Positions 1 to 58,267 of a stretch of DNA of 58,267 bases are shown piece after piece. The position numbers and the translations under genes are program-made. Where the stretch lies: IMG/VR virus record IMGVR_UViG_3300036830_000166, positions 1 through 58,267 of that record; one strand, written 5' to 3'. Numbering within the stretch: the first letter of the stretch is position 1; every line of letters starts with the position of its first letter. The DNA comes from a virus. Below the pieces are notes generated by a model, which was not told where the DNA came from, ran no database searches, and worked only from the letters and a program-made list of their open reading frames with translations.

Positions 1-2
1 CG

Positions 3-119: not shown

Positions 120-122
120 GAT

Positions 123-326
123 ATGCCGGGAGAGAAGCAATCGCGTTCGCCGCAGCAAGTTAACGAGCATGTCTGGTATTACGAGGATGGGCGCAAGCTG
201 ACCTTCGTGGTCGAGTCCGCACATTTGGAACGAAACACTGGGGCGGATACGGTTCAATTTCATGTGCCGCTATCTATGCTGGAGCGCAGCCTGGAACGTT
301 CGCCGAAGAAAGGAAAGCGCCGATGA
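123..326 (+). CDS. hypothetical protein, 67 aa
   Basis: Not recognised. A charged, soluble small protein with a basic C-terminus (KKGKRR). A GGGGGAGAG purine stretch at 109-116 supplies a ribosome site and the ATG follows the methyltransferase stop almost directly. The N-terminus MPGEKQS resembles that of the gene starting at 1813 (MPGERKS), and the two starts share the bases ATGCCGGGAGAGA, so the starts may be related by duplication. The TGA overlaps the next ATG (CGATGA junction), suggesting coupled translation. Confidence 0.6.
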   Translation: MPGEKQSRSPQQVNEHVWYYEDGRKLTFVVESAHLERNTGADTVQFHVPLSMLERSLERSPKKGKRR

Positions 327-1318: not shown

Positions 1319-1360
1319 CTAAGGGCGATCCCATTTTGAGCACGCCAGGAGGCAAAAGTG

Positions 1361-1813
1361 ATGGCAGACCATAAGACAATTACAATTTCGGTGCGCGGCG
1401 AGAATTTGGAAATAGACGAGAAAGTTGCCGATCTCGTTCTACTAATGAATCGCATCCCCGGCCTAGAAACCTTGAGCAGTTGTCAGGGCGATTTCGGCAT
1501 TATCGGGGAGTGTGGTCATTATGGTCACGTTGCGTTTAAGTATGGCGAATGGCCTACCCTCTGCGGTTTCTGCTGGGATTTCTTGCGAGAGGGTTTCTTG
1601 GATTACATCGACGATGAAGTTCGCGTGGATGTGTTCTGCAAAACGGAACCGTATGCGTGGCTCATGTTTCGCGCTGAGATGTCAGCACTCGTTACGGGGC
1701 GAATCCGAGTTATCGCCCATGAGCTTGAAGGCATCCACGCAGGACTCGCGGATGCTGCCGCAGGACGGACAAAGCCGTTTTCCCAAATTCAAAACGAGTT
1801 GGGGAGGCGCTGA
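1361..1813 (+). CDS. hypothetical protein with SCQG-type motif, 150 aa
   Basis: The start at 1361 is preferred over the in-frame GTG at 1358 because AGGAGG at 1347-1352 is 8 bases before it. The protein opens with a short beta segment (TITISVRG), then LVLLMNRIPGLETLSSCQGD. This resembles a motif of small phage and bacterial proteins in which a SCQG loop follows a helix that counts out-of-range residues; their function is unknown to me. His and Cys residues follow (CGHYGH, CGFCWDFL). The stop overlaps the next ATG by one base (TGATG). Confidence 0.6.
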   Translation: MADHKTITISVRGENLEIDEKVADLVLLMNRIPGLETLSSCQGDFGIIGECGHYGHVAFKYGEWPTLCGFCWDFLREGFLDYIDDEVRVDVFCKTEPYAWLMFRAEMSALVTGRIRVIAHELEGIHAGLADAAAGRTKPFSQIQNELGRR

Positions 1814-1971
1814 TGCCGGGAGAGAGGAAGTCGGAAAAGTTGCCCTGCGGACACGATAAACGCTACGAGGTCACTTGGAAAGAACTGCGGAGCTATGCCA
1901 TCGTGAGCGTTTATTTCTGCATCGCCTGTAACTATGAGAGCGTCACCAAGAAAATTTCGGAGAGCCGATGA
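1813..1971 (+). CDS. hypothetical small Cys protein, 52 aa
   Basis: A short gene beginning with the ATG that shares a base with the upstream TGA. The protein begins MPGERKSEKLPCGHDKRYE and carries a second Cys pair, CIAC, near residue 36, so it could bind one zinc ion through CxH and CxxC. GGGGAGG at 1800-1806 serves as the ribosome site. It ends in Arg-TGA and overlaps the following ATG by four bases. I do not recognise the family. Confidence 0.55.
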   Translation: MPGERKSEKLPCGHDKRYEVTWKELRSYAIVSVYFCIACNYESVTKKISESR

Positions 1972-2231
1972 CTGACCGAGTGAAGCCGGGGACGAGGGGA
2001 GCCAAGACACGCACGGAATCGTATCGGGGATTTTTGCCGAAGGGATTTGTTTTGGTCTGCCCAAAGTGCCGGACATTCAAGGCATATCCCGCTAACTTGG
2101 GAGATATTCGCGGAATTCTCTGTGCGGACGACGGTGTAATTAGCAACCCCGGACTTGGCAGACCTTGCGGACAATTCACTACTGAGGAAGAAATCCGCAG
2201 CTACATTGGTATGGAAATGTTCGAGGAGTGA
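1968..2231 (+). CDS. hypothetical zinc-ribbon-like protein, 87 aa
   Basis: The middle of the protein reads VCPKCRTFKAY, followed by single Cys residues at LCADDG and RPCGQF, a pattern that could form a small zinc ribbon. The N-terminus is basic (KPGTRGAKTRTES). GGAGAG precedes the ATG inside the upstream gene, and the ATGA overlap indicates coupled translation. The function is unknown. Nucleic-acid binding is a possibility because of the basic N-terminus and ribbon, but this is inference only. Confidence 0.6.
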   Translation: MTDRVKPGTRGAKTRTESYRGFLPKGFVLVCPKCRTFKAYPANLGDIRGILCADDGVISNPGLGRPCGQFTTEEEIRSYIGMEMFEE

Positions 2232-2240
2232 AGGAGAGCC

Positions 2241-3503
2241 ATGAACCCATCAGATAAGCCGACGAAGCCGAGCGCCGCAATGAAGCCAGCAGGAACGACG
2301 GCACTAGGGTGCCCATGCATCCTAAAGGGTGAAGACGGCACGTTTGAGCACAACGAGATCGTAGCGGTATTTCGCAAGAATGGTTCCACGTTCGTCTCGT
2401 GCGCCAACCATCTAAAAGGATATGGGGGAGGAATTGACGGGTGGGTGCAGGAACCTTTTGAGGCGGAGAGTGGCGTGGAAGCGCCGCCAACGCCCCGGAG
2501 CCATGAAGAATTATCCGTTGAGGAGTATATAGCCGCCCACGCCGAGGCAGCGCTCCCGCAGGAAACGCCCGCACAGCCGGACTGGTGGATTATTCATTTC
2601 GACGATGCGGAGGTCGAGCCTATGGTGCTTCAAGGTGAAGCGATAGCCCGTAAAGTATTCGCGGCCAAATTGCTCACATGGAACTGCCAATTATTCAAAA
2701 TGGTAGATGACGGCAAGAGGGCGAGTTCCGCTCCGGCCCCAGTCCCCGCGAAGCCGTCCGATATTGAGCGTGAAGTGAAGGAATTGCGCGGTTGGAAGGA
2801 TTCGGCGATGGTGCAACTAGGCAAGGCGGACAAATTGAGGGCGATGCTGCCGACACGGGGATACTGGGGATGGGACGTTTACGATGCCACCGCAGATTAC
2901 ATCGAGAAATTGAAATCCGGGGCAGCCTTCGCGCAATCCCCTGCGGCCCCTTCCGGCCTCCCAAATAGCACGGATGCAATTCCTGTGTGCCGGGAGTGTG
3001 GTCAACCTTCGCCCTGGGGCGATCCGTGCGAGAAGTGTCGCAAGCCGCTTGGAACCTGCGCTTCTCGTTTGGGGCTGCATACTGCGGGGCATGATGGCAT
3101 GGTGCCACACCCGGAATGGAATGCCTGCGAACAATGGGGTCCGGCCCCTTCCGGCGTCGAGCAACGAGCCGCAACGATCACTCACAAGCAGGCACGGGAT
3201 GCCTACAACAAGATTCACGACGCGCTCTATAACGGCAAGCCTGTGCCATGTCTCTGCGTTCCGCCGCAACCAACCGACGTGGACATGATTCTGACGGGCT
3301 ATATCAAGCAGCAATCACGTCTCGCATCCTCTCCCGCAGCGCAAACGCCTGAAGTGTTGACTCAAATTCCAGTGCGCAAGCAATGCTCATGCGGCGATCC
3401 GCGCTGCAACTATGACAATTACTGGTCTAAGAAACATGCTCGTGAGGCACGTTCTGGGGCGCAAACGGAGCCATCCCCTGCGGAACAAAGAGAGAAGAAA
3501 TGA
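2241..3503 (+). CDS. hypothetical mosaic accessory protein, 420 aa
   Basis: The largest gene of the left accessory block. It looks modular: an N-terminal segment with CPCILKGEDG, a central helical part (REVKELRGWKDSAMVQLGKAD), a zinc-ribbon-like unit near residues 253-272 (VCRECGQPSPWGDPCEKC) and a Cys-rich C-terminus (CSCGDPRC). Low-complexity Pro/Ala/Ser linkers (SAPAPVPAKPS, QSPAAPSGLP) separate the modules. Such domain-linker mosaics are common in phage accessory proteins that collect short conserved segments. GGAGAG sits 5 bases before the ATG. No enzyme signature is seen. Confidence 0.65.
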   Translation: MNPSDKPTKPSAAMKPAGTTALGCPCILKGEDGTFEHNEIVAVFRKNGSTFVSCANHLKGYGGGIDGWVQEPFEAESGVEAPPTPRSHEELSVEEYIAAHAEAALPQETPAQPDWWIIHFDDAEVEPMVLQGEAIARKVFAAKLLTWNCQLFKMVDDGKRASSAPAPVPAKPSDIEREVKELRGWKDSAMVQLGKADKLRAMLPTRGYWGWDVYDATADYIEKLKSGAAFAQSPAAPSGLPNSTDAIPVCRECGQPSPWGDPCEKCRKPLGTCASRLGLHTAGHDGMVPHPEWNACEQWGPAPSGVEQRAATITHKQARDAYNKIHDALYNGKPVPCLCVPPQPTDVDMILTGYIKQQSRLASSPAAQTPEVLTQIPVRKQCSCGDPRCNYDNYWSKKHAREARSGAQTEPSPAEQREKK

Positions 3504-3709
3504 AGCGAGCATTTCTGTGTATCGGCATTCTCTGCGCGCTCGCCGTGAGCAATGAGTGTATCCGCGAATATCGCGCGTGCGGCCACTACGATTCGGAATG
3601 CCACCACGTGTTGGGGTTCCTTGTGTTCTTCTGCGGACTGATCGGTATCGCGTGCGTGCTGGAACTGATCTACGTGGCTCGTTCCGCAGCGCAGACGAAG
3701 GAGAAGTGA
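3500..3709 (+). CDS. small membrane protein, 69 aa
   Basis: Two hydrophobic segments are visible: an N-terminal one (FLCIGILCALAV) that could be a signal anchor, and a stronger one near residues 40-60 (VLGFLVFFCGLIGIACVLEL). The loop between them holds several Cys and His residues (ECIREYRACGHYDSECHHV). It is probably an inner-membrane protein with a Cys-containing periplasmic loop. The ATGA overlap with the previous gene and AGAGAGAAG just upstream support the start. The function is unknown. Confidence 0.6.
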   Translation: MKRAFLCIGILCALAVSNECIREYRACGHYDSECHHVLGFLVFFCGLIGIACVLELIYVARSAAQTKEK

Positions 3710-3710
3710 A

Positions 3711-3833
3711 ATGCTGGTGCAACTCTTTTTGATCGCCGTACTGCTGGGATTGGACTGCTTCTTCTTGGCGGTCTTGTGGTTCGCTGCAAAGTGGGCATTC
3801 GGACGTTCGGCTCCTGCCGGGAAGGAAAAGTAA
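3711..3833 (+). CDS. very small membrane protein, 40 aa
   Basis: The product is MLVQLFLIAVLLGLDCFF, a further hydrophobic stretch, then a short polar tail ending GKEK. It is one membrane-spanning helix of roughly 28 residues. GGAGAAG lies 6 bases before the ATG, and the stop TAA is directly followed by the next ATG. With the neighbouring 3500-3709 gene it forms a pair of tiny envelope proteins. They could act in superinfection exclusion or be holin-like, but the sequence does not decide. Confidence 0.55.
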   Translation: MLVQLFLIAVLLGLDCFFLAVLWFAAKWAFGRSAPAGKEK

Positions 3834-4190
3834 ATGAATGCCACGGATACTTGGGTGCAGCACCGCAAGGATACGTGGGAATCTCACTGCGCCAAAAGCG
3901 AGGATAGGCAGCACTGTTCTTGCTGGTACGACGGCCAACCGTGTTGCAGATGCGGAGCAGCTATGAATTTCGGAGATGCAATTGAAGCGTTGAAGAACGA
4001 TCCAGGTATGACGAAAGTGCAGCGTTTGGGCTGGAACGGCAAAGGCATGTGGCTCTGCTTGCAAGTCCCCGACGCCAACAGCAAGATGGGAATGCCCTAC
4101 GTATATCTGAGCACGGTTGACGGGAAACTAGTGCCATGGAATCCGAACAATATCGACCTGCTTTCGGAAGACTGGCAAATCTGCGATTGA
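3834..4190 (+). CDS. DUF2829 / Tad2-like protein (candidate Thoeris inhibitor)
   Basis: From residue 44 the protein matches the DUF2829 pattern closely: MNFGDAIEALKN, then RLGWNGKGMWL, MPYVYLSTVDGKLVPW and the C-terminal DLLSEDW. DUF2829 is the domain of the phage protein Tad2, which binds and sequesters the cyclic ADP-ribose signal of the Thoeris defence system. Known Tad2 proteins are under 100 aa. Here a 43-aa N-terminal extension rich in Cys (CSCWYDGQPCCRC) precedes the domain. An internal ATG at 3963 with GGAG 5 bases upstream could give a 75-aa, domain-only form. The family match is strong; anti-defence activity is inferred. The stop-start junction with the preceding gene is gap-free. 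Confidence 0.8.
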   Translation: MNATDTWVQHRKDTWESHCAKSEDRQHCSCWYDGQPCCRCGAAMNFGDAIEALKNDPGMTKVQRLGWNGKGMWLCLQVPDANSKMGMPYVYLSTVDGKLVPWNPNNIDLLSEDWQICD

Positions 4191-4204
4191 GCGAGAGGAG
4201 CCCC

Positions 4205-4528
4205 ATGCCTGACCCAAAGCCCTGCCTCATCGTGATCGCATTGCTGCTGCTGAGTGGCTGCGCGGTGAAGAAGCCGATTCTAGCGCTGTACTGCGACCAG
4301 CGCGAGCAGATTCTCGACCCACGAGGCGTGAAGCAGGTGGACAACTGCCGCGACGGAATCTGTACCGGAGTCCTGCAGACGACCTGCTATGACGGGGCGC
4401 ACATGGCCGACGATGGCACCTGCACAGTGAAGGGCGAGCGATGCCTGAAGTGGGCCGCGCACCAACCAATAACTTGCGGATCAACAGACCCTTACGGTGA
4501 TTGCACGCCGGGAACAGGGCCGAGGTGA
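4205..4528 (+). CDS. putative lipoprotein, 107 aa
   Basis: The start at 4205 is chosen over an upstream in-frame start at 4136 because it follows GAGGAG at 4195-4200 and begins a clear signal: CLIVIALLLLSGC. The LLSGC lipobox predicts cleavage before Cys and lipid attachment, placing the mature protein on the envelope. The mature part is Cys-rich (about nine further Cys residues: CDQ, CRDGICTG, TTCYD, CTVKGERC, CGSTD, CTPG), suggesting disulphide bonds. The family was not recognised. Phage lipoproteins often act in superinfection exclusion; that role here is a guess. Confidence 0.6.
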   Translation: MPDPKPCLIVIALLLLSGCAVKKPILALYCDQREQILDPRGVKQVDNCRDGICTGVLQTTCYDGAHMADDGTCTVKGERCLKWAAHQPITCGSTDPYGDCTPGTGPR

Positions 4529-4531
4529 AGA

Positions 4532-4750
4532 GTGGCTGAGACGAAGCGTAGAAAGCATGACTGGTTTCACCGTGCGAATTTGAACCAGGCTGCGGATCAG
4601 GCGGAAAAGGCTCAGTCCGACTATCTTCGCGGCTTCGAGGCGTGCCGGGAGCAAGCGGCTCGCATAGTCGAACACATGCGATTCACGAAAACTGACCGAG
4701 CAATTGCGTGCGGCAAAATTCGTGCGCTGAAGCCGGAGCGGGGCCACTGA
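4532..4750 (+). CDS. hypothetical helical protein, 72 aa
   Basis: It starts at GTG 4532, three bases after the previous stop, with GAGG/GAAGAG at 4521-4531 as ribosome site. The product is highly charged and helical (ANLNQAADQAEKAQSDYLRGFEAC), ending in a basic tail. The YLRGFEACREQAA segment resembles short helices in other phage early proteins, but I cannot name a family. There are no transmembrane or zinc motifs. Confidence 0.5.
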   Translation: MAETKRRKHDWFHRANLNQAADQAEKAQSDYLRGFEACREQAARIVEHMRFTKTDRAIACGKIRALKPERGH

Positions 4751-4765
4751 GAAAGGAAGGGAACG

Positions 4766-5008
4766 ATGCGAGATTATGGCGCGGTAATAGCGGGGGTTGT
4801 CGGCGCGGTTCTGGCATTGGCGTGTATCCTGCACACGCCGTCGTACCATCCACCAGCGAAGTGCTGGATCATGCCGGGGCCTATCGAGTGCAGCGCGAAC
4901 GGCGTTTGCAACGAACCAGAGTCGCCGGAGATCGTCTACTGCGACGAGCCACGCTGCACGACAAACCCGCTGTGTGATGGATACAAGAAACCGGGAGGCT
5001 CGCAATGA
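4766..5008 (+). CDS. membrane-anchored Cys-rich protein, 80 aa
   Basis: An N-terminal hydrophobic segment (VIAGVVGAVLALACIL) is followed by a Pro/Cys-rich domain with seven Cys residues (CWIMPGPIEC, GVCN, YCDEPRC, PLC). This points to a disulphide-stabilised periplasmic domain on a signal anchor. GGAAGGGA precedes the ATG by 4-5 bases. It ends GGSQ and its TGA overlaps the next ATG within a 16-base sequence that recurs at the next gene junction. Confidence 0.55.
   Translation: MRDYGAVIAGVVGAVLALACILHTPSYHPPAKCWIMPGPIECSANGVCNEPESPEIVYCDEPRCTTNPLCDGYKKPGGSQ
4993..5008 (+). repeat. 16-bp start-junction repeat, copy 1
   Basis: GGGAGGCTCGCAATGA covers the ribosome site, the GGSQ codons, the stop and the next start. 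An exact copy lies at 5181-5196, at the next gene junction. Confidence 0.6.
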
Positions 5009-5196
5009 GCGATCTGGAAATTGAGTTGCAGGCAAAGTGCCTGATTCATTCGTTGATTCACATGCCTCTGCCATTATCTTGGCGGCAGAGAAAACTTGGA
5101 CAGGAGTTATTTCGCTTTCTCGCCGCACGCAACCCTACCACGAACGATCCTGAGTGGAAGCGAAAGAATTTATTGCTCCGGGGAGGCTCGCAATGA
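5005..5196 (+). CDS. hypothetical protein, 63 aa
   Basis: A small helical protein (IELQAKCLIHSLIHMPL, QRKLGQELFRFLAARN) ending GGSQ like the preceding gene product. The ribosome site GGGAGG at 4993-4998 lies inside the upstream gene, 6 bases before the ATG. Both ends are embedded in ATGA overlaps. I do not recognise the family. Confidence 0.5.
   Translation: MSDLEIELQAKCLIHSLIHMPLPLSWRQRKLGQELFRFLAARNPTTNDPEWKRKNLLLRGGSQ
5181..5196 (+). repeat. 16-bp start-junction repeat, copy 2
   Basis: Identical to 4993-5008. Both copies encode Gly-Gly-Ser-Gln at the end of one gene and provide the ribosome site and ATG of the next, suggesting duplication or recombination at a gene boundary. Confidence 0.6.
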
Positions 5197-5423
5197 ATGA
5201 TCCAGGGACGCCGAAAGGGGACGCGGTGATGCCGAATGTTGATGACCGTGTGAAATCCAAGGGATGCAGTTTTGCGCGCCAGTTAACTGGCAGTCGGTTG
5301 GCGGAAATGGCCCAGCGCGACGAATTGTATATTCTGCGGGACGATGCACAAGAACCCGCAATGGTACTTGCTCCATACCGCATTTATTTGGAGTTGCAAC
5401 GTTTAGCGGAGTTGAGCCGATGA
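5193..5423 (+). CDS. possible Phd/YefM-like antitoxin domain, 76 aa
   Basis: The start at 5193 is preferred to the in-frame start at 5154 because GGGAGG lies 6 bases before it and it overlaps the upstream stop as ATGA. Residues 31-70 (LTGSRLAEMAQRDELYILRD, then AMVLAPYRIYLELQRL) follow the layout of Phd/YefM antitoxins: a helix, two short strands, and a VLxPYxxYLEL helix. The usual N-terminal strand is weak. No adjacent toxin is evident; the next gene does not look like Doc, RelE or YoeB. An orphan antitoxin could neutralise a host toxin, but the call is tentative. Confidence 0.45.
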   Translation: MNDPGTPKGDAVMPNVDDRVKSKGCSFARQLTGSRLAEMAQRDELYILRDDAQEPAMVLAPYRIYLELQRLAELSR

Positions 5424-5902
5424 CATCTTCCAAGCCAGTCCAAGAGAAGGAACGAGCCGAATTCGAAGCGTTCATTATGCGGCGCATTGCGGAGGGCATG
5501 AAGGGCTGGAGCCTAGAACGTGACGACTTCGACTATCACAGTGGCGTCATCTTCAGCATGTGGCAAGGTTGGCAAGCTCGGGCCGCCTACGCCTCAGAGG
5601 CCCGCAGAGAAACGACGCCCGGAGCTAATGACGTATGCGCTTACGGGAAACGATGGGCGCATACGGATGAATACGTGAGTGAAATGGGAATATTTCACGA
5701 ATTTGTCGAGCCTGAGACTCCTGAGGCAGCGTATCGCAGAGGACGAGCCGAACAAGCGAAAGAGGATGCAATAGCGATCTGCAAAGGGTGCGCGGAAGGA
5801 TGGCCTCTGGATAAGGGCTGGCATTCGCACAGCACATCCAACAGCCAAGTAACGATGCTTTGCAAAGTCCCGTATGCTCTGCGGGAGAAGATCGGGAAGT
5901 AA
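5420..5902 (+). CDS. hypothetical phage accessory protein, 160 aa
   Basis: The start at 5420 lies in the CGATGA junction with the upstream stop and is preferred over a longer frame beginning at 5264. The central motif DFDYHSGVIFSMWQGWQAR resembles a segment that recurs at the front of modular phage early proteins (a W-x-GW helix). An Ala/Glu-rich helix and a CKGC pair near residue 121 follow. The function is unknown. Confidence 0.55.
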   Translation: MTSSKPVQEKERAEFEAFIMRRIAEGMKGWSLERDDFDYHSGVIFSMWQGWQARAAYASEARRETTPGANDVCAYGKRWAHTDEYVSEMGIFHEFVEPETPEAAYRRGRAEQAKEDAIAICKGCAEGWPLDKGWHSHSTSNSQVTMLCKVPYALREKIGK

Positions 5903-5927
5903 GTTTTGGGCACAGGAGAGAAATTCG

Positions 5928-6404
5928 ATGAGACCTTTACTTTTGGCTGTCATGCTTGGATTGGTCGGGACTGCTGCGGGGCAAACGACGCCGCCAGTGT
6001 CGCCTAGTTTTCATGGGAAGCCGCTCTCTCCATGGGAGGCATTTCATTCGATTACGTCGCCACTCGCGCCACCCCACGAAAACGGCGTATGGGCGCTAAG
6101 TTGCTCCGACTCGATCCGCGTCGGCTCTACCACCAAGTCAGTGAAGGAACTGTTCCCGGAAGAATGCCTGAAGCCTGTCATCAAGATGTGCAGCGGGATC
6201 ACATGTGTCTGCGATTCAGGCGTGAACGCGCCGCCCGCCATGCCGCGAAAGGTGCGGGTGGAGTGGCGGAATCTCATTACCAATGAAACAGGCCACGGAA
6301 ACTGCATGAGCGAGAGCGAGGCCGTCCACTGGCTCGTCTTATTTGCAGAATCGTATCCAGATGAGCAGCACTGGGTCAGTACGTGCAAACCGGGTGCGCG
6401 ATGA
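5928..6404 (+). CDS. putative secreted protein, 158 aa
   Basis: The start at 5928 has AGGAGAG at 5913-5919 and begins a Sec signal peptide, MRPLLLAVMLGLVGTAAGQT, with likely cleavage near AAG-QT. The mature part has six Cys residues (SCSD, ECLK, MCSG, CVCD, CMSE, TCKPG), so disulphide bonding in the periplasm is plausible. No catalytic motif was recognised. It is the last of the left block of short genes and ends just before the GloVer gene. Confidence 0.6.
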   Translation: MRPLLLAVMLGLVGTAAGQTTPPVSPSFHGKPLSPWEAFHSITSPLAPPHENGVWALSCSDSIRVGSTTKSVKELFPEECLKPVIKMCSGITCVCDSGVNAPPAMPRKVRVEWRNLITNETGHGNCMSESEAVHWLVLFAESYPDEQHWVSTCKPGAR

Positions 6405-7910: not shown

Positions 7911-8127
7911 GAACCGATACATCAAGCTGGCGCTGGCAGAACGCTGCGCCACCAACCTGCAAGGCGCCGTGGTCGTGGGACAGGCGGACGACTACCTGTT
8001 GGTCGAACGTGCCGCGCCGAAGCGAACGGCGGCACGGGCGAAGAAGACGAACGCCAAGGCCGTCGCCGCGCCGGCGCAATCCGCGACCGCATTCCCCGGA
8101 ACGGTAGAGGGAGTGTCGCGTGGCTGA
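7903..8127 (+). CDS. hypothetical protein, 74 aa
   Basis: It overlaps the preceding gene by 8 bases, with GGAGAG 6-7 bases before the ATG. The N-terminal half (RYIKLALAERCATNLQGAVVV) may form strands and a helix. The C-terminal half is a basic Lys/Ala-rich tail (RTAARAKKTNAKAVAAPAQ) suggestive of nucleic-acid contact. It ends within the next gene, which starts at the overlapping GTG. The function is unknown. Confidence 0.55.
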   Translation: MARNRYIKLALAERCATNLQGAVVVGQADDYLLVERAAPKRTAARAKKTNAKAVAAPAQSATAFPGTVEGVSRG

Positions 8128-9145
8128 TTCCGGCGTTCTATACGGCGAAACCGACACATTCAAAACTACCGCCATTGGCCACATGGCGCAGTATATCGCC
8201 GAGAAGACAGGTAAGGCCACGCTTCTGTTCAGCGCCGACGGTGGCGGCTGGAAGCCGGTGCAGGAGGAGATTGACGCTGGGATGATCCGGCCCTACCGCT
8301 GCGACACAGCGACAATCCCGCTGCCGATCCTGCGTAAAGTGTCGCAGGGCTACTGGCCCCGCAACCCGGAGGAGACGGACATCTCCAAGGTAGACTTTTG
8401 TCCCATCGACTGGTCGGACGTTGGCGCGATCGCCATTGAAGGATTCACGTCGATCGGCACCATGCTGATGCGCCACGTTGCGGACAAGAATCTCAAGACG
8501 GGGGAAGAAGGCACGACGCCGTTCTCAATGCCGATCCTCGTAAGTGGGCAGATGCGGCAGGAGACGTTTGCCGGGAATTCGCGCGGCCACTATAACTTTG
8601 TCCAGAACCAGCTCTATGGCCTCACTATGAACTTCATATCGTGGCCTGTCTCCTACGTCCTGTTTACCGGGCATGAGAAGAAGACGGAGGAAGGGGATCG
8701 CACGATCGTGATGGGAGTGGCGACCCCCGGCAAGGCGATCACTCCGCTGATCCCGACGTGGGTGGGAGACTGTATCCACGCGCAGGACTATCAGATCGAG
8801 AAGATCACGCAGTTGCCGAAGCCGGGCGGCAAGCCGGGAGAGATGGTTGACGACAAGACGTTCGAGCGTCACTGCCGCTACTACTTTCGCAAGCATCCTG
8901 ATCCGGTGACCGGGTTGTGCTTCCCAGCGAAGCCGCGCGTGACGCATTCGGCGGTGCGGGAACTGGATAAACGGTTCCCCGGCGGGTTCTTTGAGCCCAC
9001 GCCGGAGCACGGATTCGACTTATACCTGAAGGCATTGGACGATCTCACTAAGGGTGGCGCGAACTCGCTCAAGGGATGGCGCGAGAAGGCCGACGCCAAG
9101 CTGGGTCGCGGCCCGCGTCCTGTCGCAGAGTTATCAACCAAGTAA
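8120..9145 (+). CDS. RecA-like / Sak4-type recombination ATPase, 341 aa
   Basis: The start is GTG 8120 inside the previous gene. Near residue 8 there is a P-loop, VLYGETDTFKTTAIGH, in which the Gly before the catalytic Lys is replaced by Phe. A Walker B-like strand ends in Glu near residue 110 (VGAIAIEGFTS). A second cluster of charged residues lies around KKTEEGDRTIVMG. The order and length fit the compact RecA-like ATPases (Sak4 group) that phages use for single-strand annealing or recombination. The neighbouring gene is a plausible single-strand-binding partner. The altered P-loop leaves ATP use uncertain. Confidence 0.65.
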   Translation: MADSGVLYGETDTFKTTAIGHMAQYIAEKTGKATLLFSADGGGWKPVQEEIDAGMIRPYRCDTATIPLPILRKVSQGYWPRNPEETDISKVDFCPIDWSDVGAIAIEGFTSIGTMLMRHVADKNLKTGEEGTTPFSMPILVSGQMRQETFAGNSRGHYNFVQNQLYGLTMNFISWPVSYVLFTGHEKKTEEGDRTIVMGVATPGKAITPLIPTWVGDCIHAQDYQIEKITQLPKPGGKPGEMVDDKTFERHCRYYFRKHPDPVTGLCFPAKPRVTHSAVRELDKRFPGGFFEPTPEHGFDLYLKALDDLTKGGANSLKGWREKADAKLGRGPRPVAELSTK

Positions 9146-52967: not shown

Positions 52968-53157
52968 GATCGTAGCTCCTTGAATCTGTGAGATTTGTAG
53001 CGTTGTGGGAATGCGGGCGAGGAGGAACCCTAAGTGGAGCAGCGTGTCTAGCAGGCGGTCGGATCGTCGGAACGATTCTCGCACCAAAACCAGCAACCAG
53101 CCTAGAATCAACGCGATAGCTATCAGTGCGAGGAGCATAGCCGGTGCCATGGAGGAC

Positions 53158-53187
53158 AGCGTAACACGGGCTGGAACGCGGTGTCAA
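53158..53187 (-). promoter_or_regulatory. candidate late promoter (minus strand)
   Basis: TTGACA (53182-53187), an 18-bp spacer and TACGCT (53158-53163) on the minus strand. Transcription would begin near 53150, just before the first late gene. The -35 is a perfect match, the -10 weak. It faces away from the promoter at 53902, so the two would divide leftward late and rightward early expression. Confidence 0.5.
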
Positions 53188-53241
53188 GGTGAATGTAGCG
53201 TAACTTTACGGCCCACCCCCCCTTCCTCCCTCCCCGGAAGT

Positions 53242-53289
53242 GGGATCGACGCGACCGTTCGAACGAGATCGATGATTCGCGTCGATCCC
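53242..53289. repeat. 13-bp inverted repeat (cruciform) with inner palindrome
   Basis: GGGATCGACGCGA (53242-53254) and TCGCGTCGATCCC (53277-53289) pair perfectly. The 22-nt loop contains the 10-bp palindrome CGTTCGAACG (53256-53265). Long pyrimidine-only stretches flank it on both sides, so the region may extrude as a cruciform or form a triplex. Confidence 0.65.
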
Positions 53290-53339
53290 TCCTCCTCCCT
53301 CCCTCCCTCCTCCCGGCCGCCCGGCGTCGCAGGCTCCAG

Positions 53340-53362
53340 GCAAAATTACAAAAATAAAATTG
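53340..53362. other. AT-rich island in GC-rich non-coding DNA
   Basis: About 23 bases of A/T with few G/C (AAAATTACAAAAATAAAATT at its core). The neighbourhood is over 65 percent GC by eye. Such islands serve as DNA unwinding elements at origins; whether this one does is inference. Confidence 0.4.
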
Positions 53363-53473
53363 GTGAGAATGACGCGAGGGGGAGTGGGGGGATGTCTCCG
53401 TCCGAGAGCCGCCCCTTCCTGCGGACAACTCGGCCGGGGCCGCGGCCGGCGCCGCCGACGAGGGATGCGTGGG

Positions 53474-53497
53474 GTAACGTTACTGTAACATTGTTAC
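53474..53497. repeat. double GTAAC dyad (candidate operator)
   Basis: GTAACGTTAC (53474-53483) is a perfect 10-bp palindrome. Two bases downstream, GTAAC and GTTAC (53485-53489, 53493-53497) flank a 3-bp centre. Four GTAAC half-sites in 24 bases suggest binding of a dimeric or tetrameric regulator. Confidence 0.5.
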
Positions 53498-53645
53498 GTC
53501 GCCGCCCGGTGCGGGAGGATCGTGGCTCAGCGACGGAGGGTGCGCCGTCGTGGGACGCGAGACGACCTGGGCCGGACTGGGCGCGGGTGTGGGACAAGGG
53601 GACTACGCGAGGACAAGGGCGGCGCGGTCGCGGCGCTCACGGCCC

Positions 53646-53681
53646 GTCTCACTTTGAGACGCAGTAGTCTCAGTCTGAGAC
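53646..53681. repeat. tandem GTCTCA-NNN-TGAGAC operator pair
   Basis: Two 15-bp dyads, GTCTCACTTTGAGAC (53646-53660) and GTCTCAGTCTGAGAC (53667-53681), have perfect 6-bp half-sites with different 3-bp centres. Centre-to-centre distance is 21 bp, two helical turns, so two dimers would sit on the same face of DNA. Conservation of the half-sites but not the centres points to protein recognition. Confidence 0.65.
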
Positions 53682-53708
53682 GGCGGCACTCGATCCCACT
53701 CCCCCGCC

Positions 53709-53788
53709 ATCCCTGGCATCCCTGCCACCGCCACTCAATCCCTACTATCCCTATCAGGATCATGCCAAGTATCCCCATAATCCCTACT
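53709..53788. repeat. three tandem pairs of an ATCCCT nonamer (iteron-like)
   Basis: Nonamers start at 53709, 53718, 53738, 53747, 53771 and 53780. Each begins ATCCC and five of six begin ATCCCT (ATCCCTACT occurs twice). Copies within a pair are exactly 9 bp apart; pairs are 29 and 33 bp apart. A weaker copy begins at 53693. Tandem short direct repeats of this sort bind initiator proteins at origins. Confidence 0.55.
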
Positions 53789-53833
53789 AAGTCTATGGCA
53801 CACATCGGCACGGAGGAGATGCAACCGGCTGGC

Positions 53834-53864
53834 CACTGGGTATCAACGTTGATATCCGCCAGTG
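53834..53864. repeat. nested palindrome upstream of the rightward promoter
   Basis: The 14-bp perfect palindrome TATCAACGTTGATA (53841-53854) is enclosed by a second inverted repeat, CACTGG (53834-53839) and CCAGTG (53859-53864). Its centre is about 55 bp upstream of the -35 at 53902, a usual position for an activator or repressor site. Confidence 0.55.
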
Positions 53865-53901
53865 CAGAGCGATTTATTTCGCAAGTTACGCTACTTTTTA
53901 C

Positions 53902-53930
53902 TTGACACACGTGTAAGGTCGCGGTAGAGT
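53902..53930 (+). promoter_or_regulatory. strong promoter for the right-arm gene chain, with palindrome
   Basis: TTGACA (53902-53907), a 17-bp spacer and TAGAGT (53925-53930). The 8-bp palindrome ACACGTGT (53907-53914) overlaps the spacer and may be an operator. Start of transcription would be about 53937, directly before the first GTTAGATC leader. It occupies the place a cassette promoter has in an integron. Confidence 0.7.
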
Positions 53931-53940
53931 GTGCATGTCA

Positions 53941-53955
53941 GTTAGATCAATCGGG
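53941..53955 (+). repeat. GTTAGATC leader repeat 1
   Basis: GTTAGATCAATCGGG, identical to the copies at 54148 and 54872, lies about 4 bases after the predicted transcript start and 8 bases before the first ATG. The initial GTTAGAT fits the GTTRRRY box of integron recombination sites. No partner box is seen upstream, so it would correspond to an attI-like or simple leader element. Confidence 0.55.
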
Positions 53956-53963
53956 GGCCGACA

Positions 53964-54152
53964 ATGAGCAAGGGATGGTATGAGACGGAGTTGTTGGACT
54001 TGTGGCGCGTGAGCCGTACCGCGTTGGCGGGATTGGATCATGTGCCGTCGCGCTGGGAACGACTGCAATGGTCGCTGGGTGAGTTTATCAAGGCGCATCT
54101 GGACCAGCCACGTAAGCAGGTTTACTTGGACCTGGACGCGTATACACGTTAG
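53964..54152 (+). CDS. hypothetical protein, 62 aa
   Basis: First gene of the right-arm chain; CGGGGG of the leader is its likely ribosome site. The product (MSKGWYETELLDLWRVSRTA, then RLQWSLGEFIKAHLDQPRKQ) is a small helical protein. Its TAG stop is contained in the next GTTAGATC repeat. Family not recognised. Confidence 0.55.
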   Translation: MSKGWYETELLDLWRVSRTALAGLDHVPSRWERLQWSLGEFIKAHLDQPRKQVYLDLDAYTR

Positions 54153-54162
54153 ATCAATCGGG
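54148..54162 (+). repeat. GTTAGATC leader repeat 2
   Basis: A perfect copy of GTTAGATCAATCGGG. The TAG inside it is the stop codon of the preceding gene. No complementary CTAAC box is present within 60 bases upstream, so this copy is not a complete attC-like site. Confidence 0.5.
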
Positions 54163-54173
54163 ACACAAATTCA

Positions 54174-54404
54174 ATGCGAGGTCTGGAAATGACAAACGTT
54201 AGGCAGTTCACCAAGATTCAAGGAAACACTTTCACCGCGCAATGCGCTTCGTGCGGTATCTCCCATACCAGCAATCAGATGTACTCCGACTCCGACCGCA
54301 AATCTTTGAAGTACAAAGCTCACTATTGCGCCTCGTGCGCGTGCATGCTCGTTATCGCTTCGAGCGACCAGGTTTCGGCAGACCAGACCTCGCAATCTGC
54401 CTAA
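54174..54404 (+). CDS. small zinc-ribbon protein, 76 aa
   Basis: CASCG near residue 24 and CASCA near residue 52 give a four-Cys zinc ribbon (QCASCGISHTSNQM, HYCASCACMLV). The ATG at 54174 is 11 bases after the leader; an ATG at 54189 with GAGG upstream is an alternative start. The TAA stop lies in the first box of the following attC-like element, as in many integron cassettes. Role unknown. Confidence 0.6.
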   Translation: MRGLEMTNVRQFTKIQGNTFTAQCASCGISHTSNQMYSDSDRKSLKYKAHYCASCACMLVIASSDQVSADQTSQSA

Positions 54405-54456
54405 CTGCCGAGCACAGCGTCCGTGGCGACATTGGCGCTGTGTTGAGCGGTTAGAT
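54399..54456 (+). other. attC-like recombination site 1 (58 bp)
   Basis: Order: GCCTAAC (fits RYYYAAC), spacer TGCCG, arm AGCACAGCG, 16-nt loop, arm CGCTGTGTT, spacer GAGCG, GTTAGAT (fits GTTRRRY). The outer CTAAC/GTTAG and the 9-bp inner arms (one G-T pair) are complementary, and the spacers are not. This is the box-spacer-box layout of integron attC sites, and the length, 58 bp, is near that of short attC sites. A GTTAGATC leader variant continues past it. Confidence 0.6.
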
Positions 54457-54487
54457 CGTCGGGCGGACGTTAAACGCGGAGAACCAC

Positions 54488-54826
54488 ATGAAAGCAATCA
54501 AGACGAAGTACAAAGGGCCAACCGATACACGCGGATCGCGCATTATCGCCTCAGACGAAGATGGAAACAGGATAACTATCGGCTATCCGTACGAGTTGAG
54601 CGGCGAGGCTGTGCACCGCAAGGCCGCCGAGGCGCTGTGCGCCAAGATGGGATGGGGCCGTGATTTAGTTGGCGGATCGCTAAAGAACGGTTACGTGTTC
54701 GTATTCTCCGCCGAGCCGATGATGCGAAACGCGCTTACAATCTGCAAGGCGACGATTGAGCGCCTGGACAGTGACCACAGCAGCACGCAGGGAACGTTGG
54801 ACGTAATCCGGCAGACGTTGGACTAA
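54488..54826 (+). CDS. hypothetical cassette-borne protein, 112 aa
   Basis: GGAG is 7 bases before the ATG. The product begins MKAIKTKYKGPTDTRGSRII, a segment I associate with a small family found on phages, plasmids and mobile islands. It continues with ELSGEAVHRKAAEALCAKMG and a hydrophobic strand (GSLKNGYVFVFSAEP). It is enclosed between the two attC-like elements, so it is the best candidate for a complete cassette (about 422 bp). The TAA stop lies in the second element. Function unknown. Confidence 0.6.
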   Translation: MKAIKTKYKGPTDTRGSRIIASDEDGNRITIGYPYELSGEAVHRKAAEALCAKMGWGRDLVGGSLKNGYVFVFSAEPMMRNALTICKATIERLDSDHSSTQGTLDVIRQTLD

Positions 54827-54878
54827 CTGCCGATGTGTCAGTCCGTCGCAGGATTGGCTGGCACATGAACGGTTAGAT
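54821..54878 (+). other. attC-like recombination site 2 (58 bp)
   Basis: Order: GACTAAC, spacer TGCCG, arm ATGTGTCAG, 16-nt loop, arm CTGGCACAT, spacer GAACG, GTTAGAT. Same length and layout as site 1. The spacers and parts of the loop (TCCGT, TTGG) are conserved between the sites, while seven of nine arm positions differ but stay paired. Such compensation strongly indicates that the folded strand is what is conserved. GTTAGATCAATCGGG begins in the last box. Confidence 0.62.
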
Positions 54879-54896
54879 CAATCGGGAGGGACGGTT

Positions 54897-55094
54897 ATGA
54901 CGCAAGCAATTGAGCAGCACAAAGTTATCAGCCTCCGTGAGTTGCGCGGAGTGCTGGATCGCATGTCAAACAATGCCCTGCACCAGATCGACAACGAGCT
55001 TGTGAACATCACTGGCGGCCCGATTACCGTGCGCCTTGAATGCGAAAAGCTCACCGATGGCAGCGAAGTCTACAACCTTACTTTCAAGCTGTAG
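54897..55094 (+). CDS. hypothetical protein, 65 aa
   Basis: GGGAGGG lies 6 bases before the ATG. The product (VISLRELRGVLDRMSNNALH, then PITVRLECEKLTDGSEVYNL) is helix then strand. It has no motif that I recognise. It is followed after a short gap by the next leader repeat. Confidence 0.5.
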   Translation: MTQAIEQHKVISLRELRGVLDRMSNNALHQIDNELVNITGGPITVRLECEKLTDGSEVYNLTFKL

Positions 55095-55102
55095 TCCGGC
55101 CA

Positions 55103-55120
55103 GTTAGATCAAGAGGAGAA
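55103..55120 (+). repeat. GTTAGATC leader repeat 5
   Basis: GTTAGATCAA, then GAGGAGAA, which is the ribosome site of the next gene. The stretch ATCAAGAGGAGAAGCGA (55108-55124) recurs exactly at 55496-55512 before another gene of the chain. An upstream pairing box is not visible. Confidence 0.5.
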
Positions 55121-55123
55121 GCG

Positions 55124-55351
55124 ATGAAAGCGGAATTGATTAAGTTGAATGGCTGCTATCGGATGAAGGATGAAGTTTTCGCTGGATGTGTACAGGCTAG
55201 CGGCAGGCCGTTTCAGACACCCGATGTGACCGTTGTCCGCATTGCTTATCCGACAGGCCGCAAGCGGGCATGGTACTACGACGCCAATGGCAATGCGTTC
55301 CGGGCCGAGGACTTGTCCGGGTTCGCCCCGAAAATCGAAGTGGAACTATGA
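55124..55351 (+). CDS. hypothetical protein, 75 aa
   Basis: The start at 55124 has GAGGAG in its leader, so a longer frame from 55040 is rejected. The product (MKAELIKLNGCYRMKDEVFA, then RAWYYDANGNAFRAEDLSGF) looks like a small all-beta protein. The TGA overlaps the next ATG (ATGA). Not recognised. Confidence 0.5.
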   Translation: MKAELIKLNGCYRMKDEVFAGCVQASGRPFQTPDVTVVRIAYPTGRKRAWYYDANGNAFRAEDLSGFAPKIEVEL

Positions 55352-55518
55352 CTTTGGCTTGGGAATACGCGAAGTTTGGAACTTGCTTAGGTTGTGGCAA
55401 GCCTGCCAATAGCCTCAGTGCAGCTTATTGCGGATATTGTCTTTCGGAGCTTATGCAGAATCCGAAACATCGCTGTGAAATTACAGAATCCAAGAATCAA
55501 GAGGAGAAGCGAAGATGA
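55348..55518 (+). CDS. small zinc-ribbon-like protein, 56 aa
   Basis: CLGCGKPANSLSAAYCGYCL gives two CxxC pairs 14 residues apart, a compact zinc ribbon. A C-terminal basic segment ends EEKRR. The ATG overlaps the previous stop, and its own TGA overlaps the next ATG. Function unknown. Confidence 0.55.
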   Translation: MTLAWEYAKFGTCLGCGKPANSLSAAYCGYCLSELMQNPKHRCEITESKNQEEKRR

Positions 55519-55697
55519 CGCAAGCCGATGTGGGCAGGGTGCGTTATTTTCAGCAGTCCCAGTTCCCATGCTCCACGATCACACTCTCGCACTCCGAGGA
55601 TAAAGACTCTCTATGCCATGTGGAAATTCATAACGGGTATGGGGTGTTGGTTTATTGCGGGGAATATTTGGGTGCGCTAAGCGTCGAACGCACATAA
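55515..55697 (+). CDS. hypothetical protein, 60 aa
   Basis: GAGGAG (55500-55505) in a repeated leader stands 9 bases before the ATG. The product is beta-rich (RYFQQSQFPCSTITLSHSED, HVEIHNGYGVLVYCGEYLG). No motif was recognised. Confidence 0.5.
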   Translation: MTQADVGRVRYFQQSQFPCSTITLSHSEDKDSLCHVEIHNGYGVLVYCGEYLGALSVERT

Positions 55698-55714
55698 CTG
55701 GAGTCGCGGTAGCA

Positions 55715-55727
55715 GTTAGATCAACGG
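55715..55727 (+). repeat. GTTAGATC leader repeat 6 with 6-bp hairpin
   Basis: GTTAGATCAACGG, then AGGCAGGAGG. TAACTG (55695-55700) and CAGTTA (55713-55718) form a perfect 6-bp hairpin with a 12-nt loop, so this element is a shortened hairpin version, only about 27 bases long. It is too short for a normal attC. Confidence 0.5.
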
Positions 55728-55747
55728 AGGCAGGAGGAAACCAACAA

Positions 55748-55900
55748 ATGTCACTCGCATGGAACTGTGAACGCCGTCCGCCGCGGAGCCAGTGCCGCCA
55801 GCCAGCGCCGTGGACGCTTTGGGACGTCGGAGTCGTCATCGTGCTCGTGGCGGGCGCTGTGGCGACGCTGTGCGGCATCCTGGACGCGGTGCTGGGATGA
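55748..55900 (+). CDS. small membrane protein, 50 aa
   Basis: GGAGG precedes the ATG by about 10 bases. A basic N-terminus (CERRPPRSQCRQPA) is followed by one helix, WDVGVVIVLVAGAVATLCGI. The TGA overlaps the next ATG. A single-span inner-membrane peptide of unknown role. Confidence 0.5.
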   Translation: MSLAWNCERRPPRSQCRQPAPWTLWDVGVVIVLVAGAVATLCGILDAVLG

Positions 55901-56106
55901 CGCGGGCCATCACGATAACCTACGATCTGGCTATGGCATCGGCCAAGGATGCCGCGAACCAGCAGATGCGGAAGGCTGGACGGACAGCGTGGAACGAGGA
56001 CGACTACAACCTATCAGTGGTCAAGTTTCATCGTCTGTGGCCGTGTCCCAAGGGCGCGACGTGTGAGATCTGTAATCCTGTGATTGAGACCGCGGTGCTG
56101 GGATGA
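55897..56106 (+). CDS. hypothetical protein, 69 aa
   Basis: The product (AITITYDLAMASAKDAANQQ, then LWPCPKGATCEICNPVIETA) is helical with three Cys residues near its end (CPKGATCEIC), a possible metal site. ATGA overlaps on both ends. GC and codon use return to the phage average. Not recognised. Confidence 0.5.
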   Translation: MTRAITITYDLAMASAKDAANQQMRKAGRTAWNEDDYNLSVVKFHRLWPCPKGATCEICNPVIETAVLG

Positions 56107-56180
56107 TCGGCGCGGGAGTCTGCTTCGTGGCGCTGGTGGCACTGGTAGCGGTGAGGTTGTGGGAGGAGTGGCGGCGATGA
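56103..56180 (+). CDS. very small membrane protein, 25 aa
   Basis: ATGATCGG... encodes MIGAGVCFVALVALVAVRLW followed by EEWRR, one membrane helix with a charged end. Both ends overlap neighbouring genes as ATGA, which is the best support for a gene this short. It could be a toxin-like or regulatory membrane peptide. Confidence 0.4.
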   Translation: MIGAGVCFVALVALVAVRLWEEWRR

Positions 56181-56497
56181 CCAAGCACGCGTTGCTGATG
56201 ATCGTGCTCCAACTGGCATCCTCCGGCGCCGACGCGTGGACGACGCATCGCGGACTCAGCGATCCCGGCCACTTCGAGCGCAATCCTCTGGCGCGGCCGT
56301 TCGTGGGATCGACCGCCGGCCAGGTGGCGTTCTTCGGCGGCGGCGCGGGGATCAAGCTGGCGATCCCGTGGGCCTTGCGACGTCGTGGGCATGGCAGGAT
56401 GGCCACGGCCGTGGAATGGACCGGGATCGTGGACTCCGGTGCCGCGGCGGGGAACAATGTAGCGGAGTTGCGGCGCGGGGCATCCCACAAGCCATAG
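56177..56497 (+). CDS. membrane protein, 106 aa
   Basis: Starts in an ATGA overlap with GGAGGAG about 9 bases upstream. The product has an N-terminal helix (LLMIVLQLASSGADAW), then THRGLSDPGHFERNPLARPF, a motif typical of a family of small multi-span membrane proteins common in Acidobacteriota. Two weaker helices follow (GQVAFFGGGAGIKLAIPW). Function unknown. Confidence 0.55.
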   Translation: MTKHALLMIVLQLASSGADAWTTHRGLSDPGHFERNPLARPFVGSTAGQVAFFGGGAGIKLAIPWALRRRGHGRMATAVEWTGIVDSGAAAGNNVAELRRGASHKP

Positions 56498-56567
56498 CGA
56501 TCATAGCTGCCGCCGTGAGTATCCTGTGGATCGTGTGGAAATCAGGTCGAGTGGGGCGCGGGACGCG

Positions 56568-57623
56568 TCACCAGGGCGGCGGCGAGGGCGAAACGGTCGA
56601 ATATCTCCGCGCGGCCATCGTCGCCCGTTGCCTTTGGCCATAACTGGTAGGTCTTATATGGTCAAATCGCTCGGCGAGTTCTCGCACGGTGGCCAGCATG
56701 TGCTGTCGGATGTGCCGCCTCCCGCATACGGAACACGTTGGCAGTTCGGGCGTATCTTCCTCGATCGTTTCGCCGTCTCCGTGCTCGAATCCGCGAAACG
56801 TGCCATATAGCGCAGTGAGATCCTCATTGCGGAATTCGGCGCTCAACTCCAGCTCGCGCGCGCCGACGGACTCCCAGTACGCGACGAATCCGCTGTTGGC
56901 TAACCGTAAGCCGGTTTCCTGCGTGTCCCCGTCCCGGTCGTCGTAGGTACGAACGCGAAGCGTGGCGGCGGGCCCGGCGATGCGCTTCCATAGCGCGTTG
57001 AGCTCAGGCCAGTACGGTAATCGATCGCCCTCGTGGATCACGTGGAACATGGTGCCGTCGAATCGTGGCGTAAACGCAGCCAGCCATTGCCAGCCGTGTT
57101 CGCCATCGAAGGTGTTGGCGAAGCGGCGGAACAATTCTCGCCCACGCACCATGCTGAATCGGCGATCTCCTGGCGCATCTGGCAACTCGAACGTGAACAC
57201 TTGAATGGAGGATTGCGCCAAGTGGGCGTGCAATCGCGGATGCTCGTAGCGGAACTTGCTGATGCGGGCTTTTGGCGCGGCGCACGGCTCGTGCAGCATC
57301 GGCTTCCCGCATACCACGGGAGAGTGTTCCGCCTCGTGGCCGGCGGCGCAATGCGACGTAACATTGTGGATGTGAGAGCAGCCGGCGAGGGAATTCGCCT
57401 CGGAAGCGCGATCCGCGGCCAGTAGCCGGTTGGCACGGGCCAGCGTCTTGGGCTCCAGCTCGGCGGCGATCTCCGGCTTGATCTGGATGCGACCGGTGGA
57501 GTCGTCGCGCGTCAGGCCGTGTTGGAGAGTCGGCGGCGCGTACCAGTTGGCGGAAAGATCGATGTGTTGGGGAGTGTAAAGGCTGGGATCGGTGGGGTCT
57601 GGAACGAGCGGAATGGTAGACAA
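56568..57623 (-). CDS. possible Rep-like (HUH-type) protein, 351 aa
   Basis: Start TTG 57623 has AGGAGGG 6 bases upstream; the longer reading from 57641 is rejected. The N-terminal part has His/Cys pairs (CSHIHNV, HCAAGHEAEH, VCGKPMLHEPC) and VFTFELPDA. A core follows with WQWLAAFTPRFDGTMFHVIH, then LPYWPELNALWKRIAG. This order (Cys-rich finger, FT strand, H-x-H strand, L-x-x-W-x-R-I-x-G) recalls rolling-circle Rep proteins. A second zinc pair (TCSVCGRRH) and a helix end the protein. The catalytic Tyr/Lys motif is uncertain. Confidence 0.4.
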   Translation of the reverse strand: MSTIPLVPDPTDPSLYTPQHIDLSANWYAPPTLQHGLTRDDSTGRIQIKPEIAAELEPKTLARANRLLAADRASEANSLAGCSHIHNVTSHCAAGHEAEHSPVVCGKPMLHEPCAAPKARISKFRYEHPRLHAHLAQSSIQVFTFELPDAPGDRRFSMVRGRELFRRFANTFDGEHGWQWLAAFTPRFDGTMFHVIHEGDRLPYWPELNALWKRIAGPAATLRVRTYDDRDGDTQETGLRLANSGFVAYWESVGARELELSAEFRNEDLTALYGTFRGFEHGDGETIEEDTPELPTCSVCGRRHIRQHMLATVRELAERFDHIRPTSYGQRQRATMAARRYSTVSPSPPPW

Positions 57624-57943
57624 GTGTAACCCTCCTGACAAGGGTCGATGGGCCGCAGTGTGTCAGGCACCGCAACCCGGCTCGACTTTCATCAATTTCC
57701 CCGTGGTGAGGAACTGAATGTTGAACACAGGCTAGCACAAATTGCAAGCGAAAAGTTAACGCCCCGTGAAAAACTTCCTACCCTCCCCCTACGACTCCAC
57801 AGGCTAAATGCGCGGTAGACGCCATCTAGGCTGGTTGGCGTAGACACCCGCCACTGTCACTCTAAACTTAGCACTTGACATACTCCGCGCGGGCTGGTAT
57901 AAACGGTTCGTGCGTCGGTGAATCCGGCACGAGGAGAGATGGT
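57624..57943. other. intergenic region with divergent starts
   Basis: 320 bases between the Rep-like gene (minus) and the partial gene at the right end (plus). It has a near-consensus rightward promoter at 57875, a pair of GTAGACRCC direct repeats (near 57812 and 57841) and a lower-GC stretch around 57690-57760. No gene is seen in it. Confidence 0.5.
57875..57903 (+). promoter_or_regulatory. near-consensus sigma70 promoter
   Basis: TTGACA (57875-57880), 17-bp spacer and TATAAA (57898-57903); five of six bases match the -10 consensus and all six the -35. Start of transcription near 57910, 34 bases before the partial gene at the end of the window. The strongest promoter seen here. Confidence 0.75.
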
Positions 57944-58267
57944 ATGGCGGGATCGCAGAAGGTGCAAGTCAGTGTGACGATGGAGGTTAGCGGGATCGAG
58001 CGGATACGGATGGGCGACGGTCAAGACGTGATGAAGCTGTTGCTGCGCCAGCATCATTCGGTGAATCCTTTCGACTCGTTTCTGTACGTGCCATGGGACG
58101 ACGCAACCGCGGCGAAGACCCGGATCGGCGACCGCCTGACGCTGGAGGTATGGCACGAAGGTTCTACAACCTTCGAGTCGGCGACGGAACCGGTGAACGC
58201 GGGTACGGCGGTTAGAGGAGAGAGGTCGCCGGTGCTCGGCGAGACCATGGTCGACAAACTCTCCGCG
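57944..58267 (+). CDS. hypothetical protein (partial, runs off the window)
   Basis: The ATG at 57944 follows GAGGAGAG; the frame is open to the last base, so at least 108 residues are encoded. The product begins MAGSQKVQVSVTMEVSGIER, then has a VMKLLLRQHH helix, FDSFLYVPWDD and a beta segment (RIGDRLTLEVWHEGSTTFES). No motif is recognised. It is the first gene behind the strong promoter at 57875, so it is likely an early, highly expressed protein. Confidence 0.6.
   Translation, partial: MAGSQKVQVSVTMEVSGIERIRMGDGQDVMKLLLRQHHSVNPFDSFLYVPWDDATAAKTRIGDRLTLEVWHEGSTTFESATEPVNAGTAVRGERSPVLGETMVDKLSA

Follow-up and report, generated by a model that had tools for sequence, protein, structure and literature searches.

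Phage record and small-gene operon

The window analyzed here, that is, the whole stretch of 58,267 bases, is a virus record in IMG/VR encoding a phage DNA polymerase, a Dda-like helicase, a Sak4-like annealing protein (8120-9142) and a terminase, and no tyrosine recombinase was found in it. The host may be an acidobacterium, since the nearest terminases among named phages are those of Tunturi_1 and Tunturi_2 (Acidobacteriota; 32% identity over 91%). For comparison, we used a sister phage recovered by pattern scan (L010/G001) and a more distant phage, G006, the terminase of which is 79% identical. The sister phage is a 62-kb record, circularly permuted relative to the window, with 87-99% identity in most of the long aligned blocks.

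A run of small genes on the plus strand, from 53964 to about 56100, had a G+C content of 55%, compared to 63% in the remaining record. The gene starts within this run are calls made in this analysis by start-site analysis and inspection. A promoter scan detected one plus-strand promoter-like sequence in the operon (TTGACA-17-TAGAGT), located upstream of leader copy 1 only, and scans found neither terminators in the operon nor internal promoter-like sites at the hairpins. As leader copy 1 begins 10 nt past the -10 box of this single promoter-like sequence, the predicted operon mRNA probably has its 5ʹ end at or close to this copy. The features of the array are as follows (window coordinates, all on the plus strand):

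53902..53930, sigma-70-type promoter TTGACA-17-TAGAGT (promoter scan), conserved in the sister phage (G001/L010)
about 53936-53940, transcript start predicted from this promoter
53941..53955, leader copy 1, GTTAGATCAATCGGG; 15 nt from GTTAGATC to the ATG at 53964
53964..54152, gene 1, 62 aa; the G001 homologue (73% identity) sits behind a different leader
54148..54162, leader copy 2, GTTAGATCAATCGGG; its TAG is the gene 1 stop, and a second, native leader follows, TGCGAGGTC
54189..54404, gene 2, 71 aa, cysteine-rich; start best placed at 54189, not 54174
54401..54454, RNA hairpin 1, 22 pairs; left arm with the gene 2 stop, right arm ending in the GTTAG of copy 3
54450..54463, leader copy 3, GTTAGATCGTCGGG; followed by gene 3's own leader, GACGTTAAACGCGGAG
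54488..54826, gene 3, 112 aa, PHROG 3199 family (unknown function)
54823..54876, RNA hairpin 2; left arm with the gene 3 stop, right arm with the GTTAG of copy 4
54872..54886, leader copy 4, GTTAGATCAATCGGG; runs into GGGAGG
54897..55094, gene 4, 65 aa
55103..55118, leader copy 5, GTTAGATCAAGAGGAG; second leader type, with GGCCA in front as in G001
55124..55351, gene 5, 75 aa
55348..55518, gene 6, 56 aa; weak zinc-ribbon match, under the curated cut-off
55496..55512, second ATCAAGAGGAGAAGCGA copy, without GTTAG; leader of gene 7
55515..55697, gene 7, 60 aa
55695..55718, minimal stem TAACTG/CAGTTA with its end in leader copy 6; z -0.6, not significant alone
55715..55730, leader copy 6, GTTAGATCAACGGAGG
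55748..55900, gene 8, the last one behind a leader copy

Upstream of the operon promoter, ATCCC occurs seven times in about 90 bp (53693-53784; 0.15 expected per 105 bp). This cluster is largely retained in the sister phage and could represent iterons or operators. Four GAGAC/GTCTC motifs with a spacing of about 10 bp (53646-53681) are possibly operator half-sites.

A leader repeat confined to gene junctions

The sequence GTTAGATC occurred six times in the 58-kb record, at 53941, 54148, 54450, 54872, 55103, and 55715, always on the plus strand and always within 53941-55722. These are the six positions reported in the initial annotation, and the three copies that it listed as exact (53941, 54148, and 54872) do extend identically to GTTAGATCAATCGGG. 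The 17-base leader described there as duplicated was likewise recovered at 55108 and 55496 (ATCAAGAGGAGAAGCGA). The annotation had made its claim depend on the frequency of the motif in coding DNA; elsewhere in the record there was no copy of GTTAGATC on either strand, and the minus strand had none at all. The chance expectation was 0.76 copies, and six were reached in 0 of 100 shuffles. The Poisson probability of the count was about 1.4e-4, with clustering and start association left out of account.

Each copy precedes a small gene, with a gap of 13-33 nt between GTTAGATC and the start codon. It had been stated that the copies lie just before starts and mostly run into the ribosome site. The first part was borne out, and the second holds for four copies, which run more or less straight into it, and fails at 54148 and 54450, where the ribosome site does not come from this leader but from a gene-specific one behind it that has a GAGG or GGAG of its own. 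The copy at 54148 additionally provides the stop codon of gene 1 (TAG within GTTAG). Relatives of gene 3 (PHROG 3199) occur in unrelated phages and there have a GACGTTAAACG-type leader without GTTAGATC; two of them (L027 and L028) carry GACGTTAAACGGAGG and GACGCTAAATGGAGG, respectively, directly before the ATG. In the window, GTTAGATC is located upstream of this native leader. The native leader of gene 2, TGCGAGG, was found twice more in G006. Because GTTAGATC stands upstream of the native ribosome site in two genes, it is a junction element and not mere Shine-Dalgarno context.

We further looked at 10-mers common to gene starts in these phages, and their genome-wide number was not above that of random placement, indicating that the case of GTTAGATC is specific. 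Inspection by eye showed no further pairing between the leader and the 3ʹ end of the 16S outside the ribosome site, and the variable gap between leader and start (13 to 33 nt) argues against a strict role in initiation.

Leader retention and gene exchange in the sister phage

A search in relatives, as suggested in the initial annotation, located the leader in the same operon of the sister phage, again downstream of the shared promoter, with exact copies of GTTAGATC at G001 positions 28346, 29015, and 29945 and a damaged copy, GTTCGAGATC, near 29396. The promoter and the first leader were conserved between the window and G001, but the downstream content was not. The only array proteins homologous throughout were window gene 1 and one G001 protein (w1/g3, 73%), and window gene 2 and the first G001 gene (w2/g1) had their last nine residues alone in common, indicating that the leader is shared by unrelated genes. 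The slot of gene 2 is occupied in both G001 and G006 by unrelated genes with a related C-terminal tail. The G001 homologue of gene 1 is located behind the leader that serves gene 4 in the window, showing that leaders and genes have been re-paired between close relatives. Almost all array genes of the sister phage are different ones, so the leader persists longer than the genes behind it. The designation of GTTAGATC as a start-associated element is thus well supported: it lies at gene junctions only, is retained in the sister phage and is common to unrelated genes.

The leader had also been suggested to mark cassette boundaries. When block edges common to both arrays were mapped, three of eight fell inside the leader footprint (P about 0.008), in a small test (8 edges) that was framed after the alignment was seen. 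The suggestion is therefore partly supported, in the sense that the leaders may act as recombination joints, and does not extend to an integron meaning, as described below.

Mosaicism was not confined to this operon. A second small-gene arm of the window (1-6390) was equally mosaic relative to the sister phage, with blocks of ~20-50 bp at or near 100% identity interleaved with unrelated sequence. The other arm of G001 contains the start leader GGGGAGAGTGAGAT three times (36232, 36800, and 40285), and in G006 the leaders TGCGAGGCCAC and GCGCCGCACACGAAA are each present twice.

An IMG/VR scan with a 15-mer returned 26 stretches. Those other than L010 were considered mostly fortuitous, given the length of the query and the size of the collection. 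TJE1, a published CALIN phage, has a single GTTAGATC on the minus strand, with nearly all of its genes on the plus strand.

A hairpin conserved as sense-strand RNA

Four homologous hairpins were found in three phages: the two copies in the window, one in G001, and one in G006. Their alignment gave a common 22-pair structure with 95.5% of cells paired. Nine pairs had changes on both sides, a count that comes from four hairpins of three phages and is inflated by their kinship; 0 of 500 shuffles were as good, and slid controls were far lower. The middle stem was almost wholly changed, and the tip GUCCGU-GC-AUUGGC was retained. The consensus energy was -35.1 kcal/mol on the sense strand versus -17.1 kcal/mol on the opposite strand, and wobble pairs followed the same direction, with 16 G-U cells versus 2 A-C cells on the sense strand. 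The sense-strand z scores of the four single sequences were -6.4, -5.4, -5.0, and -3.6, and those of the opposite strand were weaker in three of the four hairpins and equal in G006. Hairpin 1 differed from its G001 orthologue at two sites only, a C-G to U-G and an A-U to G-U change. The hairpin thus belongs to the mRNA-sense strand and is conserved as RNA.

The left arm of both window hairpins holds the stop codon of the preceding gene, and the right arm holds the GTTAG of the leader. In the G006 hairpin, the outer stem is partly broken. The large hairpin was absent at four of the six window leaders. A search of other relatives with model R1 yielded no further hairpin copy, and hairpin scans of IMG/VR recovered the same phages only, with looser matches covering the tip alone. 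Rfam covariance models matched nothing in 53000-58267 at E values up to 1.

These results bear on whether the repeat is a passive scar, namely a good ribosome-site region that was copied by duplication or gene exchange in a mosaic operon and whose regulation is by translation only. The 20-50 bp identical blocks between unrelated genes in both phage arms are in keeping with such an origin, as is the fact that other leaders are duplicated too (GGGGAGAGTGAGAT in G001, TGCGAGGCCAC and GCGCCGCACACGAAA in G006). However, GTTAGATC lies upstream of the Shine-Dalgarno sequence and is retained even where a native ribosome site follows, and a covarying hairpin requires selection on RNA. We therefore regard a passive origin as unlikely.

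Comparison with integron attC sites

According to the initial annotation, two of the leader copies had a full attC-like partner; these partners span 54399-54456 and 54823-54878. On this basis, the array could be a CALIN, with GTTAGAT serving as the Rʹ core of attC, both hairpins as attC sites and the copy nearest the promoter as an attI-like site, the genes being shuffled at G^TT by an integron integrase that the host supplies in trans. Virulent phages with CALINs carrying IntI1-active attC sites do exist (Qi 2023, PMC9892861), and the window resembles them in its GTTRRRY-like boundaries, hairpins, small genes in one orientation, and upstream promoter (PMC9892861). GTTAGAT matches GTTRRRY at every boundary, and the promoter stands directly upstream of copy 1. 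Moreover, the whole array is in the same orientation, its content is rearranged in the sister phage, and both strict boxes, RYYYAAC and GTTRRRY, are found in hairpin 1 (54399-54456) and its G001 copy.

The strand on which the hairpin is conserved points in the other direction. The conserved strand is the top one and has G-U pairs. In attC, recombination uses the bottom strand, and three authentic sites of plasmids R388 and R100 folded better on that strand, with 0-1 G-U pairs on top. The G006 homologue is without the GTTRRRY core, hairpin 2 misses the strict RYYYAAC by one base, and there is no attC at four of the six boundaries. Conservation also extends past the core into AATCGGGAG. Strict box pairs were about as frequent in the whole window as expected by chance (shuffle mean 2.0), yet rare in array-only shuffles (0.04). 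Searches of the window and its relatives with TIGR02249 and PF00589 were negative for both integron integrases and tyrosine recombinases. CALINs are by definition without an integrase, so the action of a host enzyme on degenerate sites is conceivable. A consensus scan of 85,000 bacterial genomes for attC sites gave two isolated matches and no array.

Because the sense-strand bias is opposite to that of the attC controls, the core is missing in G006, and no integrase was detected, the hairpin is most likely not attC, and the partner named in the initial annotation appears instead to be a sense-strand RNA hairpin. An integron origin of the array as a whole is, in our estimation, very improbable; the G-U-rich sense hairpin with opposite strand bias, the lack of an integrase, and the majority of boundaries without attC set it apart from the phage CALINs. 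This case suggests that a phage hairpin resembling attC can be an RNA element and that it helps, in telling the two apart, to look at which strand the wobble pairs favor.

Comparison with start-associated sequences and other phage elements

The initial annotation drew a parallel with the start-associated sequences (SAS) of mycobacteriophages. In cluster K mycobacteriophages, SAS are 13 bp in size, and inverted repeats lie upstream of about half of them (PMC3203893). As in SAS and extended SAS (ESAS), a short conserved motif stands here before many unrelated small non-structural genes in one orientation, is rare or absent elsewhere, is kept across relatives, and has an upstream inverted repeat in a subset of copies. 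The parallel therefore stands for the arrangement and not for the sequence, since GTTAGATCAATCGGG differs from the SAS consensus GGGATAGGAGCCC (at most two mismatches), as compared by inspection only. The spacing to the start is 3-9 nt for SAS and 13-33 nt here, and here one 2-kb operon alone is involved. ESAS are 17-bp inverted repeats upstream of SAS with putative promoters inside and no RNA pairing supported; unlike these, the hairpin described here covaries as sense-strand RNA, carries the upstream stop codon, and is without a promoter-like site. By analogy, we infer that the leader works like SAS/ESAS; it is not a member of that family.

A role in transcription, with internal promoters, terminators, or operator sites, has been proposed for cluster K ESAS, and in phage Adephagia, SigA-like promoters lie within the ESAS inverted repeat (PMC11373665). 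In the window, the scan placed the sole plus-strand operon promoter upstream of copy 1 and found no terminator, and the stems vary in sequence yet keep pairing, unlike a DNA operator. A transcriptional element is accordingly the reading to which we give the least credence. SAS/ESAS have been known since 2011, and their function is still called unclear (PMC11373665, PMC12699233). The present case is an independent, unrelated one in a different phage lineage. The covarying hairpin points to the transcript, not DNA, as the site of action, and the question becomes testable in a small operon.

T7-like phages have RNase III processing sites between their early genes. The hairpins here resemble these sites in that they are long, contain internal loops and sit between cistrons of an early-type operon, immediately ahead of the next ribosome site. 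This likeness is one of length and position only, and the conserved tip and the repeated leader are differences. The tip counts against a plain RNase III substrate, because such conservation is not expected there.

Tunturi_1, a cultured phage, has a sequence of its own, TCTGGGAGGA, before five genes (L041/L042, PP887698), which is possibly a start-associated sequence as well. No hairpin was found in Tunturi_1 or Tunturi_2, and GTTAGATC was not present on the plus strand of the record, only three copies being on the other strand.

Proposed role of the element

We consider it fairly probable that the element is a lineage-specific intercistronic RNA and translation-start module of a tailed phage, where it belongs to a hypervariable operon of small genes and also serves as a recombination joint. 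The GTTAGATC(AATCGGG) sequence would open the predicted operon transcript or come close behind its 5ʹ end; it recurs before most downstream genes, where it would form the translation-initiation region of the downstream gene or sit just above it. In this way, the leader might make 5ʹ ends and start regions alike in all downstream cistrons. The hairpin between cistrons in the mRNA may be a processing or stability element or a protein-binding site. The mRNA target of a regulator, the other role suggested in the initial annotation, is also a possible function. Because the leader recurs, it could offer short homology for small-gene exchange, probably by general phage recombination, a route for which we count the encoded Sak4-like annealing protein. 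The accessory genes would then be exchangeable while the expression signals stay.

A more specific version, which we hold only tentatively and think somewhat doubtful, is that the hairpin and the GTTAGATC leader together form an unreported structured RNA, and that a factor of phage or host origin recognizes it and thereby processes or licenses every cistron of the exchangeable small-gene operon. If this were true, newly captured genes would be co-regulated merely by landing behind a leader.

Minor features of the related arrays

One gene of the sister array (L010 1973-2520) looks frameshifted near a T run at about 2226 and continues in another frame into a backbone gene. The homologous array of G006 encodes a 451-aa protein (L045, 43857-44405, minus strand), most of which is an 18-bp tandem repeat encoding GI-AG-type hexapeptides.
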